A stretch of DNA of 54,825 nt. Origin: Sedimentisphaerales bacterium. GTDB lineage: Bacteria > Planctomycetota > Phycisphaerae > Sedimentisphaerales > Anaerobacaceae. The translations under genes and the position numbers were made by a program. Below the pieces are notes generated by a model. That model searched no databases. It had not been told where the DNA came from and saw nothing but the letters and a program-made list of their open reading frames with translations. Every line of letters begins with the position of its first letter. Within the stretch, counting starts at the first letter, position 1. This document shows, piece after piece, positions 6,922-43,155 of the stretch. The stretch spans positions 1 to 54,825 of the forward strand of contig JAFGBG010000098.1 in assembly GCA_016933295.1 (NCBI GenBank), given 5' to 3'.

Positions 6922-9612
6922 TCATTCGCCTCCACGTCTTCCCCTAGTACCGAATCCGCCACGACCGCCTCTCGGCCCTGGTTCGGGAGCTTCCATAGGT
7001 AACCGGTCCTTGACCATCTCCAGGATTTCAATATCCATCAGGGACGACTGGGCAGATGTATTCGTGCTGACACCGCGAGCTTCATCGACCGGATTAAGCA
7101 CCTCAGGTGCTTCGATCCGCGTCGTATTATAATTGCTACGACCGTATCCAACCCCCTGGATCGCACGCTCGGCAAATGCAGGATTCTTCGTTTTGTAATA
7201 CACGTATGCCGCTAATCGCGGCGTTCCCTGGCTGTTGCCACCGCCCTGCTCGCCTATCATCGATGCATCGGCTCCTTCTGCTCCGGTCTCTTTGTCGCGC
7301 AGAAGCACCTCCGCCGGCGCGTTCCCTAACCGACAATACTGAAGCCAGATTTTCTCCCACGTCGGATCGTCGAGTAAATCAGTCAATTCAAAAGCCACTT
7401 CCGCTCCGCCTTGAATCGTTGTCAGGTTATAAGTTCCCGGCGAGTCGTCCACCTGATAGAGCTTCCCCGTCGCCGGATCGTAGCCCATAACCAGATTTCG
7501 CCCGGTTCGCATCCCATACGGCATTTCCGCCATCGAGTTGACACCGGCCATAATTTTGTCACGCCATTTAGTCTCGCCGGTCCGTTCCCATTCAGTCATC
7601 CAGTTGCTTACGAACGCCAGCCAGTCCGGCCCGACACGCACCCTCCCCGGATATTTCGCTTCCCTTTCGTTTCTCGGCTGCGCCTTGCGCATCATGTCAA
7701 CCTCGGAAGTTGTCTTGTCGGCCACCAGCACCATCTTCATGATATCGCCAATGCGCTCATCGGTCGTCAGGTAGTAATAGAACCGATTATGTGCCGCCTG
7801 GCTGACGCGCGGCTCCTTGGCGCTGTCGCCCCAATGCACTACATTGTGCCGGGAGCCCAGACCTGCAAAACGGCCGAAGTGATATGTGTCCACCTCGCTG
7901 GTGTGCCGCGTCATTGCCTCTGCCATTCGGAATATGTCTGCGTCTCCTGTTCGGATATAGCTGTACCAAAGCCATAACACCGAACCCAATTCCGTGTTGT
8001 CCCAGGCATATCCTCCCACATCATAGCGCCACATATGCCTCTGCGTATCGTACGCATGGCGCACATCGCCATAGTGCCAGAATCCATACCAATGATGCTG
8101 TTCAATCGCATTCCTGTAATAATCCAGCGCCCCAGCCAGCCGATCCTCAACCAATTCCTTGAACGGCGTTGAACGATCAGGCAGGCTCCAGAGACCGAAG
8201 ATTCCCGCCGCGTGAATTATCTGAGGATTGATCGTCAATAAGGGTGGTTCGTTCGCCATCTTTGCCTGCGCCACAGACTCATCGCGCGACGGCATCTGTC
8301 CCGAGGGGTACAGCATCAGCTCACTGGTTCTTGCCACACCGACCGGATCATCATATCCCTCTTCGTAATCCTCGTAATTCCCGCTGCCATTGACGTTCCC
8401 ATGGCCGTGTGTGTCGTAGAATCGCATGTCCATCGCCGGCCCGTCCGGGGACCACAGCCAAGCCAGAACCGTTGCCGCTTCTGCCGTGGCTCCACGCACC
8501 TCCAGAGCCGACGGATGAGACTGCCAGAAGTCCTTCACTGCTACACCCAGACCACCGGTTTCGTCTCCGGCAAAAACATAGCCGGCAGCCCGCTTCCCCT
8601 GAGCGGCTTCCAGCCACGAGCTCTTATCGTTTGTCCGCTTGACAATACTGAAGCCTTCGGAATTAGATTGCACAAGCTTAAACTCATCCCACTGTGCCGA
8701 AGGATCCTGGGTATCTGCCCTGCCTCGCCTGCCGAATCCACCACGTCCACCAGTGACTGTAGGCTCGCTCCAAAGACCACCATCGGCTCCGGCGAACCGC
8801 ACGGTGCGGTCACGCAATCCTCCTCGCAGCGGCACATCGAATGCTAATCCAAGACCTCGCAGGAAATCCTCGTTTTTGTCACCGTCGAACATAATCGTAT
8901 GCACGACCTTGATCGGCTGAAGTCCGGCGTAGAAATACAGCCGCACAACAAACGGTAACCACTCTCGCGAACCGTTCACCTCCTTGTGGATACCCTCGAA
9001 CTTTACCACTGCTCGCACCGGCCCTTCCTGCTCAACAGTCACTTTCTTGATCGAGCTCACATACACCTCACGCGGCGATGGATGCAGGTAATTGGTCTCA
9101 GGTCCGTTCTGCAGGATCGCCTCCAATCGTCCATTACGAGCGACTTCACGACCATCCACAGTAATCGAATCAATCAGACTGCCTTCTTTACCGCCCAACA
9201 AAACCTGCATCAAGCCCGTATCCACAAGCCATGATCCGGCCGTCTCGGCGCCTTTGATCCTAACAGCCGGACCGCTCGTCGTCACTGCCTGGGCCTCCTC
9301 AACAATCATCGGTCCGGTGTCATTCGCGTCGGCGGTCGTCGCAAATCCCGTCCACTTGACGGATCCGTCCGGCCAATACGCCAACGTCCAGCTCTGTAGC
9401 GGCTTCGTCTCATCGTTGTCTGTCTTCAGCCGGAACTGCTGGTCCCGCCGCACCGTTCCCTCGGGCCACGGAACTCCCCAGCTCACACCGATCGGACCAA
9501 CTGGAGTCTTCTCACCCAACCATTTTATCTGTACATTCTGTGCCATTACTCCCACGCTCGTTGCAGCTATCAAAAAGATCATAAAGGCCACGCAAGATAT
9601 ACGATACTTCAT
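6922..9612 (-). CDS. secreted PL26-like exo-rhamnogalacturonan lyase (PcRGLX/YetA-like)
   Basis: This 896-aa protein has a cleavable signal peptide ending VGVMAQNVQ and a start supported by GGAGAAAAG. The N-terminal beta-sandwich (VGPIGVSWGVPWPEGTV ... WTLAYWPDGSVKWTGFA) is the PcRGLX N-terminal domain. The central part (HHWYGFWHYGDVRHAYD, WLWYSYIRTGD) is the (alpha/alpha) barrel of this family. It is expected to attack rhamnogalacturonan-I from chain ends. It carries two Gly/Arg-rich stretches. One is internal (GGRGGFGRRGRADTQD, about residues 287-304, between two beta-sandwich strands) and one forms the extreme C-terminus (PRGGRGGFGTRGRRGGE). Neither is expected in the fold. The internal one uses the same codons (GGC AGG CGA GGC AG) as the CE15-like gene insert. 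Confidence 0.85.
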   Translation of the reverse strand: MKYRISCVAFMIFLIAATSVGVMAQNVQIKWLGEKTPVGPIGVSWGVPWPEGTVRRDQQFRLKTDNDETKPLQSWTLAYWPDGSVKWTGFATTADANDTGPMIVEEAQAVTTSGPAVRIKGAETAGSWLVDTGLMQVLLGGKEGSLIDSITVDGREVARNGRLEAILQNGPETNYLHPSPREVYVSSIKKVTVEQEGPVRAVVKFEGIHKEVNGSREWLPFVVRLYFYAGLQPIKVVHTIMFDGDKNEDFLRGLGLAFDVPLRGGLRDRTVRFAGADGGLWSEPTVTGGRGGFGRRGRADTQDPSAQWDEFKLVQSNSEGFSIVKRTNDKSSWLEAAQGKRAAGYVFAGDETGGLGVAVKDFWQSHPSALEVRGATAEAATVLAWLWSPDGPAMDMRFYDTHGHGNVNGSGNYEDYEEGYDDPVGVARTSELMLYPSGQMPSRDESVAQAKMANEPPLLTINPQIIHAAGIFGLWSLPDRSTPFKELVEDRLAGALDYYRNAIEQHHWYGFWHYGDVRHAYDTQRHMWRYDVGGYAWDNTELGSVLWLWYSYIRTGDADIFRMAEAMTRHTSEVDTYHFGRFAGLGSRHNVVHWGDSAKEPRVSQAAHNRFYYYLTTDERIGDIMKMVLVADKTTSEVDMMRKAQPRNEREAKYPGRVRVGPDWLAFVSNWMTEWERTGETKWRDKIMAGVNSMAEMPYGMRTGRNLVMGYDPATGKLYQVDDSPGTYNLTTIQGGAEVAFELTDLLDDPTWEKIWLQYCRLGNAPAEVLLRDKETGAEGADASMIGEQGGGNSQGTPRLAAYVYYKTKNPAFAERAIQGVGYGRSNYNTTRIEAPEVLNPVDEARGVSTNTSAQSSLMDIEILEMVKDRLPMEAPEPGPRGGRGGFGTRGRRGGE

Positions 9613-41812: not shown

Positions 41813-41903
41813 AAACAGCACAAGAGGGCAGAATAATATTATAGCCAACCATTTCCCCTAAACCAATTCAGATGGTAAACAATCATTCAATCGAATAAAA
41901 AGG

Positions 41904-42017
41904 AAGCCCCCGCTTGAAGGAGGAAAGGTGGATAGCAGGGGCTTTGCACAAGCGAAACTGTACTATCTTCGCATTTATTGCACAATGCCGTCAATTGTGG
42001 TGACTACGTATTTTTAG
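41904..42017 (+). ncRNA. intergenic structured element, copy A
   Basis: Stem P1 is AAGCCCC(c)GCT (41904-41914) paired with AGC(a)GGGGCTT (41934-41944). Its loop is purine-rich and contains GAAGGAGGAAAGGTGG. After a 42-nt spacer, stem P2 CACAAT/ATTGTG (41981-41986/41994-41999) closes the loop GCCGTCA, followed by ACGTATTTTT. The layout is shared with copies B and C. The same DNA also contains a small ORF, so RNA and peptide roles compete; the class is unknown. Confidence 0.45.
41928..42017 (+). CDS. possible 29-aa small ORF inside copy A
   Basis: GTG 41928 follows AAGGAGG by 4 nt and opens a 29-codon frame (MDSRGFAQAKLYYLRIYCTM, then PSIVVTTYF) ending at TAG 42015. The frame of copy B gives a similar start (QSRDLSNSVYL) and end (VPCRVPIITIF); copy C gives VPSSVTFVTLF, but only after stops. 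The ribosome site would be hidden in the loop of P1. It is below the ORF-track limit and may be coincidental. Confidence 0.3.
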   Translation: MDSRGFAQAKLYYLRIYCTMPSIVVTTYF

Positions 42018-42121
42018 ATAAAATTTCTCTACATATACGAGACCAGAAAGGTCCTATATTACAGGCACAAAATAGCTAAAAATCGCAATATTCTTGTTAT
42101 TTTAGCAAAAAAACAATAATA

Positions 42122-42267
42122 AAGCCCCTACTTTGTGGAGGAGAATACAAAGCAGGGACTTAAGTAATAGTGTATATTTAATACACTATCACACCTCCTT
42201 CTTTCATCAATTAACCATCTTTTACTATAATTTAGTGCCGTGTCGAGTTCCAATTATAACGATTTTT
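42122..42267 (+). ncRNA. intergenic structured element, copy B
   Basis: P1 is AAGCCCCTACTTTG (42122-42135) with CAAAGCAGGGACTT (42148-42161), 12 of 14 positions paired, with loop GGAGGAG. The spacer is 75 nt and contains an extra perfect hairpin TAGTGTAT/ATACACTA (42168-42188) plus CACCTCCTT (42193-42200), complementary to its own loop. P2 is TATAATT/AATTATA (42226-42232/42252-42258) around TAGTGCCGTGTC, then ACGATTTTT. The 74-aa TTG ORF 42133-42357 runs through it without a ribosome site upstream of the TTG. Confidence 0.45.
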
Positions 42268-42443
42268 ACAAATACAACGATTTCTCAGGCTATTTCAAAT
42301 CCTGATTCAAAAACATCAATACAAAAGCACTTATGGCAGATTTCACACGCAGTATAACGTTTGGCTATAACACAATCCTCCTAAAGTGGATTCCTGAATA
42401 TGTCGATTCTTCAGAACAGATATATACAATATGGGAGTAAAAA

Positions 42444-42821
42444 ATGGATCAAGCCAGGAATCAAAGACAAGAAGAAAGATTAGAGTATCAATGGCCCGTA
42501 TGGTTTGCGGAAGATTTCAAACAAATGCTGTCCGAAGGTCTAATGGTCGATGTCTCCAGCGGAGGAATGGCATTTAAATGTAATGCCGACGAGAATTGCC
42601 CCAAAGTTGGACAAAAATTAGCTGCTCGCTTTAGCATCCCGCGTTTCGAAGAAGACGACTCATCAGCTATAACAAGCTTTATCAGAACAGGATATGTTCT
42701 ACGAGTCGAAAAAATAAATGCATCTTTGTGCCTGGTGGCGATTCAATTCGATGAACCTTTATCTCTCAAACCCTGTGAACAGGCCGATATTAATATTATG
42801 CTCAACAAGAATTTACGGTGA
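42444..42821 (+). CDS. PilZ-domain c-di-GMP-binding protein
   Basis: This 125-aa cytoplasmic protein consists of a single PilZ domain. The N-terminal R8-QEE-R12 (RxxxR) and VDVSSGG (DxSxxG) motifs that contact cyclic di-GMP are both present. The barrel then runs through FKCNADENCPKVGQKLAARF, FIRTGYVLRVEKIN and LVAIQFDEPL. It would act as a stand-alone receptor that changes a partner on binding the second messenger. The start follows GGGAG at 7 nt. It is flanked by element copies B (176 bp upstream) and C (about 215 bp downstream). The partner and process are unknown. Confidence 0.9.
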   Translation: MDQARNQRQEERLEYQWPVWFAEDFKQMLSEGLMVDVSSGGMAFKCNADENCPKVGQKLAARFSIPRFEEDDSSAITSFIRTGYVLRVEKINASLCLVAIQFDEPLSLKPCEQADINIMLNKNLR

Positions 42822-42990
42822 CTAAAACTACTATCATCCCGAAGCTAATCAGACTGCAAATTTATTCATATCATATTTCCTCTTTCCCTGATACGGCAGA
42901 TATATTGATTAAAGCAGGCAGGATTGAGTCAAATCTACAATAATATTCCAAGCGAAATCCGACAAGAGCTTATTTTTTAAGGGAAAACAA

Positions 42991-43009
42991 GCCCTTCGTG
43001 GTGAAGGGC
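42991..43009. repeat. 7-bp hairpin preceding copy C
   Basis: GCCCTTC-gtggt-GAAGGGC is a perfect short hairpin 170 bp after the PilZ stop and 27 nt before P1 of copy C. It lacks an adjacent T-run, so it is not a standard terminator; GAAAAAGGGAAAT follows. It may belong to the copy C structure. Confidence 0.4.
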
Positions 43010-43035
43010 CGAAAAAGGGAAATCAGGCTTTGAAA

Positions 43036-43155
43036 AAGCCCCTGTTTTTATTAACCCCCACATCCAATAAACAGGGGCTTAAGTATTGAAAAGTTATCGA
43101 TCTATAATTCTCTATAATAAAGTGCCGTCGTCAGTGACCTTTGTAACGCTTTTTG
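43036..43155 (+). ncRNA. intergenic structured element, copy C
   Basis: P1 is a perfect 12-bp stem AAGCCCCTGTTT/AAACAGGGGCTT (43036-43047/43069-43080) with a pyrimidine-rich loop (TAACCCCCACATCC) instead of the GGAGGA of A and B. The spacer is 43 nt, nearly equal to copy A. P2 is ATAAAG/CTTTGT (43117-43122/43139-43144, one G-T) around TGCCGTCGTC, then ACGCTTTTT. CTATAAT precedes it as in copy B. The remaining 380 bp to the MoxR gene are AT-rich, with no other recognised gene. Confidence 0.45.

Follow-up and report, generated by a model that had tools for sequence, protein, structure and literature searches.

In Escherichia coli, the small regulatory RNAs (sRNAs) MicA and RybB depend on sigma-E, an ECF sigma factor that is autoregulated. 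In Listeria monocytogenes, LhrC1-5 together with Rli22 and Rli33-1 are multicopy sibling sRNAs whose CU-rich sites, one of them in the terminator loop, block the Shine-Dalgarno (SD) sequence of target mRNAs, and LhrC1-5 are all switched on by the envelope-stress regulator LisRK, one of the targets being a cell-wall protein (PMC4132741, PMC5880928). In Alphaproteobacteria, the cuckoo or alpha-r14 RNAs (NfeR1) have an ultraconserved anti-SD sequence, CCUCCUCCC, that is unpaired while the stems vary, and they silence mRNAs at the ribosome-binding site (PMC10746234). The NmsR sRNAs of Neisseria meningitidis are two tandem siblings with predicted anti-SD motifs that are under the stringent response (PMC5362039), and in cyanobacteria Yfr1/Yfr10, with the conserved ACUCCUCACAC, is found with a complementary partner sRNA, Yfr2 (PMC6778093, PMC2190773). 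For the Phycisphaerae, a class of Planctomycetota, no described sRNA family was found in the open literature or in Rfam, which is not proof of absence.

The window analysed here is a stretch of 54,825 nucleotides from a Sedimentisphaerales bacterium and it is a single contig of a 4.24-Mb genome in 270 contigs. The original prediction was that three intergenic elements, A, B, and C, lie around a PilZ gene and that each is a plus-strand RNA with a P1 hairpin, AAGCCCC...GGGGCTT, followed by a P2 hairpin around TGCCGT and ACG(n)TTTTT. All three elements were found at the predicted positions with these motifs, with one mismatch in B; there are two exact P1 palindromes in the 54.8 kb against 0.00 expected and two exact TGCCGT-n-ACGnTTTTT matches against 0.02 expected. 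The spacers had been given as 42, 75, and 43 nt for A, B, and C and were measured as 41, 74, and 42 nt, each one less. The PilZ gene has no evident connection to the elements beyond its position. That the elements belong to no described class was borne out in Rfam: the sole match above cut-off across the window was a tRNA, a permissive Rfam search of the A-B-C region gave nothing significant, and the elements matched no Rfam 15 family at its gathering score. We consider it quite probable that A, B, and C are minus-strand genes for small regulatory RNAs of a multicopy family whose CCUCC loops would mask the SD sequences of their targets. The strand, the terminators, the covariation, the promoters and their spacing, the copy number, and the ECF linkage were established by computation. 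The features of the three genes, some of them with predicted ends, are as follows.

41894..41962, minus strand: predicted sRNA A, about 65 nt, with a short leader, the terminator hairpin, and a U-tract; 5' end predicted
41904..41944, minus strand: terminator hairpin of A, AAGCCCCTGCT...AGCGGGGGCTT, with loop AUCCACCUUUCCUCCUUCA and CCUCC at 41919-41923
41989..42015, minus strand: promoter of sRNA A, the type I box AAAAATACGTAGTCACCACAATTGACG, with an upstream activator-like site and the -35 TTGACG, from the logo and the -10 spacing test
42104..42227, minus strand: predicted sRNA B, about 120 nt, with a leader containing GAAGGAGG, a leader hairpin, and the terminator hairpin, from alignment and covariation; ends predicted
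42121..42161, minus strand: terminator hairpin of B, with CUCCUCC in the loop at 42137-42143; covariance model R1 match of 43.3 bits, and covariation
42167..42189, minus strand: leader hairpin of B, ATAGTGTAT-TAAAT-ATACACTAT, with covariation across 16 type II members
42194..42198, minus strand: leader element of sRNA B, the GGAGG that is part of GAAGGAGG, well conserved in type II leaders
42235..42267, minus strand: promoter of sRNA B, the type II ECF-like box AAAAATCGTTA-N17-GGCAC, from a pattern search of family genomes
43028..43115, minus strand: predicted sRNA C, about 85 nt, without the leader hairpin and without CCUCC; R1 match of 39 bits
43036..43080, minus strand: terminator hairpin of C, with 12 uninterrupted pairs and a U-tract on the minus strand
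43122..43153, minus strand: promoter of sRNA C, the type II box AAAAAGCGTTA-N17-GGCAC, with the 17-nt spacing seen in B and in the family

Read in the minus-strand direction, P1 is a Rho-independent terminator made up of AAGCCCCUGC...GCAGGGGCUU with a long C/U-rich loop and a U-tract. All three P1 hairpins have a U-tract behind them on that strand (GGGGGCTTCCTTTTT in A, GGGGCTTTATTATTGTTTTTTT in B, and GGGGCTTTTT in C) and on the plus strand no U-tract follows P1 at any of the three places (GGGCTTTGCA, GGGACTTAAG, and GGGCTTAAG), so that the plus-strand assignment had to be given up. The minus-strand RNAs of A, B, and C fold with z of -4.0, -4.3, and -2.0, respectively; the corresponding values of the plus-strand units are +0.7, -1.9, and -2.9. 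Predicted sRNA A matches R1 at 49.1 bits (E 3.6e-10). The 11-pair stem of P1 is kept in 22 aligned relatives with changes on both sides in 10 of the 11 pairs, a level of covariation that none of 500 shuffles reached and that was far lower in every slid version of the stem. Compensatory change in P1, which had been proposed from the three copies, thus holds in the wider family, and with the further copies found in relatives it supports the proposal that this is a selected, repeated RNA element and not debris. Since these hairpins are good Rho-independent terminators, they might merely terminate the adjacent protein genes, in which case the CCUCC loop would have no function in trans. It is consistent with this that A is about 90 nt downstream of a plus-strand gene and that R1 partly recognises generic terminators, giving weak matches across the phylum. 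We nevertheless regard it as unlikely, because the genes flanking A, B, and C are on the plus strand and the U-tracts on the other, conserved promoters stand shortly upstream of the hairpins with no intervening ORF, and CCUCC is enriched in the loops far beyond what composition would give.

P2 of A is promoter DNA of the minus strand and not an RNA hairpin. The type I box of A, 26 bp long, is AAAAATACGTAGTNNCCACAATWGAC and consists of an activator-like site plus the -35. Its motif, GTCWATTGTGGNNACTACGTATTTTT, is nearly invariant in relatives and was found in 11 of 60 family genomes, with up to 15 copies in each, whereas the reversed pattern never matched; among 198 genomes sampled from the class, only two, both of the same family, had matches, and the motif is almost confined to MAGs labelled Sedimentisphaerales, Phycisphaerales, or Planctomycetota. 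A logo of 69 type I copies shows AAAAATACGTAGTYACCACAAT[A/T]GACA, which is the upstream site running into the -35 hexamer, followed by an AT-rich peak. When the sequence 16-19 nt past the -35 was compared with TATAAT, at least four of the six positions matched at 91 of 109 type I sites (14.7 expected) and at least five matched at 35 of them (1.0 expected). The -10 of gene A itself is weak, the best match being GATAGT with a 21-nt spacer. In the 109 type I copies the P2 arm ATTGTG is invariant, and its supposed partner CACAAT, the place of which is free spacer between the -35 and the -10, occurs in 15 copies compared to 24 for scrambled controls, so that P2 does not hold as a hairpin. Nor is P2 of A homologous to P2 of B and C, and the compensation that had been seen in P2 arose because two unrelated promoter types were compared; the three elements are therefore not copies of one P1-P2 unit, the promoter class of A being different from that of B and C. 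The distance from box to hairpin, which had been thought to be fixed, varies widely among relatives.

These data bear on the earlier view that P1 and P2 are hairpins of a structured plus-strand RNA. It is possible to draw both of them in all three elements, and the plus-strand unit of C has the fold value given above, but the P2 pairing is absent in the 109 relatives of the motif of A, the logo and the -10 spacing are those of a promoter, P1 has no U-tract on that strand, and the plus strand of A folds no better than shuffles; we give this view very little credence. A peptide, SIVVTTYF, that can be read from the motif of A on the plus strand was also rejected, as in related copies it is altered by non-synonymous changes and its stop codon is lost, while the DNA positions are fixed. 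The best explanation for gene A is that it has a promoter of the sigma-70 type together with a conserved site upstream, an arrangement that also precedes many genes for exported proteins, and the type I box would be bound by a second, putative activator. Among 110 unique type I sites, about 18 lead into a P1-type terminator and 61 into a candidate ORF, and a hydrophobic N-terminus, as in exported proteins, was seen in 30 of 47 ATG-started ORFs after type I boxes; no Pfam family common to the proteins encoded after these boxes was found. At type I loci of some genomes (L206, L215, L158, and L166) a different recurring hairpin, AGGGAGACA...GTGATGAAGAG...TGTCTCCCT, was observed, which could represent a further sRNA or a small gene.

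P2 of B and C is a second type of promoter, CGTTA-N17-GGCAC followed by TTAATTATAG. The spacing of this type II box is 17 nt in B, in C, and in most relatives, and the spacings of 8 and 5 that are also listed reflect a further GTT within the spacer. A pattern search of 60 family genomes found 27 sites, spread over 10 of them, and the reversed-pattern control found none. Of 31 listed places with the type II box, among which a few sites are counted twice because two loci contain them, 16 lead into a CUCC-loop terminator. Eight other type II boxes, in eight genomes including the source genome, lead into one type of ECF-like protein; long ORFs were read in seven, and the eighth, at L369, has an internal stop and was recognised by its first codons. 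All four of the ECF-like proteins tested have sigma-70 region 2 and region 4 domains, and the three that were scanned against NCBIfam were all above the cut-off for the ECF superfamily. In the source genome the box is at 7847 and the gene at 7925 (G000:C177), and there, as in relatives, the box stands about 40 nt upstream of the ECF gene. All ten genomes with a type II box carry a close ECF orthologue with at least 57% identity to the source-genome protein, genomes with only more distant ECF relatives have no type II box, and in five genomes with a close orthologue no type II box was detected. Judging from the position of the box and from this co-distribution, the ECF factor would use the type II box. 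B and C are probably in an autoregulated ECF regulon because the promoter box that they have in common also precedes the ECF sigma factor gene. A sigma-54 reading of GGCAC...TTGCA was rejected, as there are 9 and not 10 nt between GG and GC and the ECF reading is better. The ECF protein (G000:C177:7847-9382, in loci L365 and L388, with the relatives L371, L374, L375, and L377) has a very long conserved C-terminal extension; it is at least 490 amino acids long in all, the sigma regions are confined to the first 180, and several paralogues per genome occur in the family.

The type II RNAs have a common leader with GAAGGAGG and the hairpin TAGTGTATTGAATATACACTA, in which both-sided changes were seen in 7 of 9 pairs across 16 members. 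The hairpin that had been noted as added in B is real and is this conserved leader hairpin, and since B has the full type II leader, the hairpin is the common state and it is C that is reduced. In type II leaders GAAGGAGG often stands 6-7 nt ahead of a GTG that is part of the leader hairpin, and CUCCUCC is in the terminator loop of the same RNA; GAAGGAGG might serve in self-pairing, as a sponge, or in a tiny ORF. A dipeptide ORF, GGAGG-N7-GTG-TAT-TAA, was considered and rejected, as it is present in some members only and its length is not conserved. The loop of C has GGGGG, and C looks like a diverged or degenerate copy that would have retained the promoter and the terminator and lost the CCUCC loop. 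Immediately beyond the terminator of C, on the minus strand at about 42985-43012 of the window, there is another hairpin, GGCCCTTC-ACCA-CGAAGGGC, followed by TTGTTTT.

When 95 terminator loops were examined it was found that they are 73% C+U and that CCUCC is present in 75% of them, compared to 16% when the loops are shuffled one by one, and that none contains GGAGG; for R1 matches these figures are partly circular, as R1 contains loop sequences. For this reason a hairpin scan that is blind to the loop was run over 578 kb of loci, which is a cleaner test, though small: of 37 well-scoring long-loop hairpins with a U-tail, 7 (19%) had CCUCC and none had GGAGG, while in hairpins without a U-tract each motif occurred in about 2-3%. 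The unpaired CCUCC-type motif is present in A and B and not in C. GGAGGA in the plus-strand P1 loops of A and B might also suggest a sponge that exposes it to CsrA/RsmA, to which we attach scarcely any weight, since the promoters drive the opposite strand and the well-scoring U-tailed hairpins of the loop-blind scan often have CCUCC and never GGAGG on the RNA strand. For anti-SD action, the loops were paired with the ribosome-binding regions of 28 genes of the window. The energies were -8.1 kcal/mol for A compared to -6.7 +- 0.6 for shuffled loops and -7.0 kcal/mol for B compared to -5.6 +- 0.75, a modest advantage of about 2 standard deviations on 28 genes only; both loops also paired more favourably with these regions than with the interior of genes, and the loop of C, which lacks CCUCC, had no preference for the ribosome-binding sites of these genes. 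The CUCCUCC loop of most family members could block the ribosome-binding sites of target mRNAs. At about 17991 of the window, on the minus strand, an ORF for a predicted secreted protein has a ribosome-binding region, UUGAAGGAG, with 9 nt of complementarity to the sRNA A loop (duplex of -19.5 kcal/mol), and this ORF is a possible target of sRNA A, though the match could be due to chance.

A covariance model and a search of related genomes had been called for, and R1 gave 16 matches at E of 0.01 or below in the source genome, among them the minus-strand matches at A, B, and C; these are 15 places, as the palindrome of C matches on both strands. Of 99 relatives, 81 had R1 matches, the maximum being 30 in a genome; elsewhere in the phylum the matches were weak and did not exceed 31 bits, which is what ordinary terminators would be expected to produce. 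When the source genome was searched at the DNA level, another full relative of A was found, as were several places that have P2 of A alone. The family thus has several homologous intergenic copies per genome, about 10-30, within one Sedimentisphaerales family. Being multicopy, intergenic, at times tandem, and confined to one family, the elements could be copies of a MITE- or REP-like mobile or repetitive element without regulatory function. This is very improbable, as terminal inverted repeats or target duplications were not noticed on inspection, copies that have diverged in sequence still keep the pairing and the promoter spacing, the same terminator is joined to different promoter classes, and the boxes also stand alone before genes. 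Inspection of the sequence likewise gave no feature in support of an integron attC, an IS, or a MITE. Some family members (L119, L120, L118, L126, L340, and L330) have an extra 5' hairpin, GRCUGU-nYGYAYGGAnGYnn-ACAGUY, and at L121, L115, L116, and L010 there is a second family of terminator-like hairpins, GGGCTGTAAACCTCCGCTTTTACAGCCC and its relatives, with a CCTCC loop in some copies. A contig labelled Desulfosarcina (L219, JAQYWF010000363.1) has a type I box and two CCUCC-loop terminators of the planctomycete family and is probably misbinned.

The mechanism that fits best by analogy would be that of regulated sRNAs with an SD-masking loop, like the Listeria LhrC or the cuckoo/NfeR1 RNAs. The match to anti-SD sRNAs follows from the anatomy: an own promoter, no ORF, and a Rho-independent terminator that exposes CUCCUCC. 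Each of the three genes would comprise a separate promoter, a leader whose length varies, and a terminator in which the stem is conserved and the loop is usually long, single-stranded, and rich in CUCCUCC. Once the activator or the ECF factor is on, the sRNAs would be produced, and their CCUCC loops would pair with the SD sequences of target mRNAs and thereby lower translation; the targets are probably exported or envelope proteins. We infer the transcription of A, B, and C, the anti-SD pairing, and the identity of the targets. A wider reading, which we find doubtful and offer tentatively, is that of a lineage-wide riboregulatory network with tens of sRNAs per genome, in which one anti-SD terminator module stands behind activator-box, ECF, or plain sigma-70 promoters and buffers translation initiation, and in which type II leaders pair with themselves or sponge sibling RNAs; such self-pairing or sponging is conceivable because GAAGGAGG is kept upstream of the CUCCUCC loop. 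The sRNA family itself would provide a first riboregulatory network for this class of Planctomycetota, linked both to the ECF sigma factor with its autoregulation and to a second putative activator, and it would be another, apparently independent, evolutionary arrival at anti-SD sRNAs.

How does this family compare with the described systems? Like LhrC, it is multicopy and has a CU-rich terminator loop, but it differs in having about 10-30 copies, a single seed region, placed in the loop of the terminator, and several classes of promoter, ECF among them; homology to LhrC (Rfam rli22, clan CL00114) was not found, as the stretch with C scored 21.6 bits (E 1.1) against a cut-off of 80. NfeR1-type RNAs have the motif in three hairpins, whereas the planctomycete family has it in one terminator loop and its stem sequence is conserved; several hairpins each with CCUCCUCCC were not found, there being one CUCCUCC loop per RNA, and there was no Rfam match. 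With NmsR the family shares tandem siblings with anti-SD motifs, though by Rfam the two are not homologous. A few type I loops read CUCCUCACA, comparable to the ACUCCUCACAC of Yfr1/Yfr10, and the GGAGG of type II leaders might act as a complementary partner; the structure of Yfr1/Yfr10 is different, however, and by Rfam they are not homologous. B and C resemble the sigma-E, MicA, and RybB system in that an autoregulated ECF factor would drive sRNAs that would repress envelope or exported proteins, though the ECF factor is a different one with a long C-terminal extension and the sRNAs are non-homologous. Multicopy anti-SD sRNAs are thus already known as a kind, and what appears to be new is the family itself, its modular use of promoters, and its copy number, which at 10-30 per genome is high for anti-SD sRNAs.
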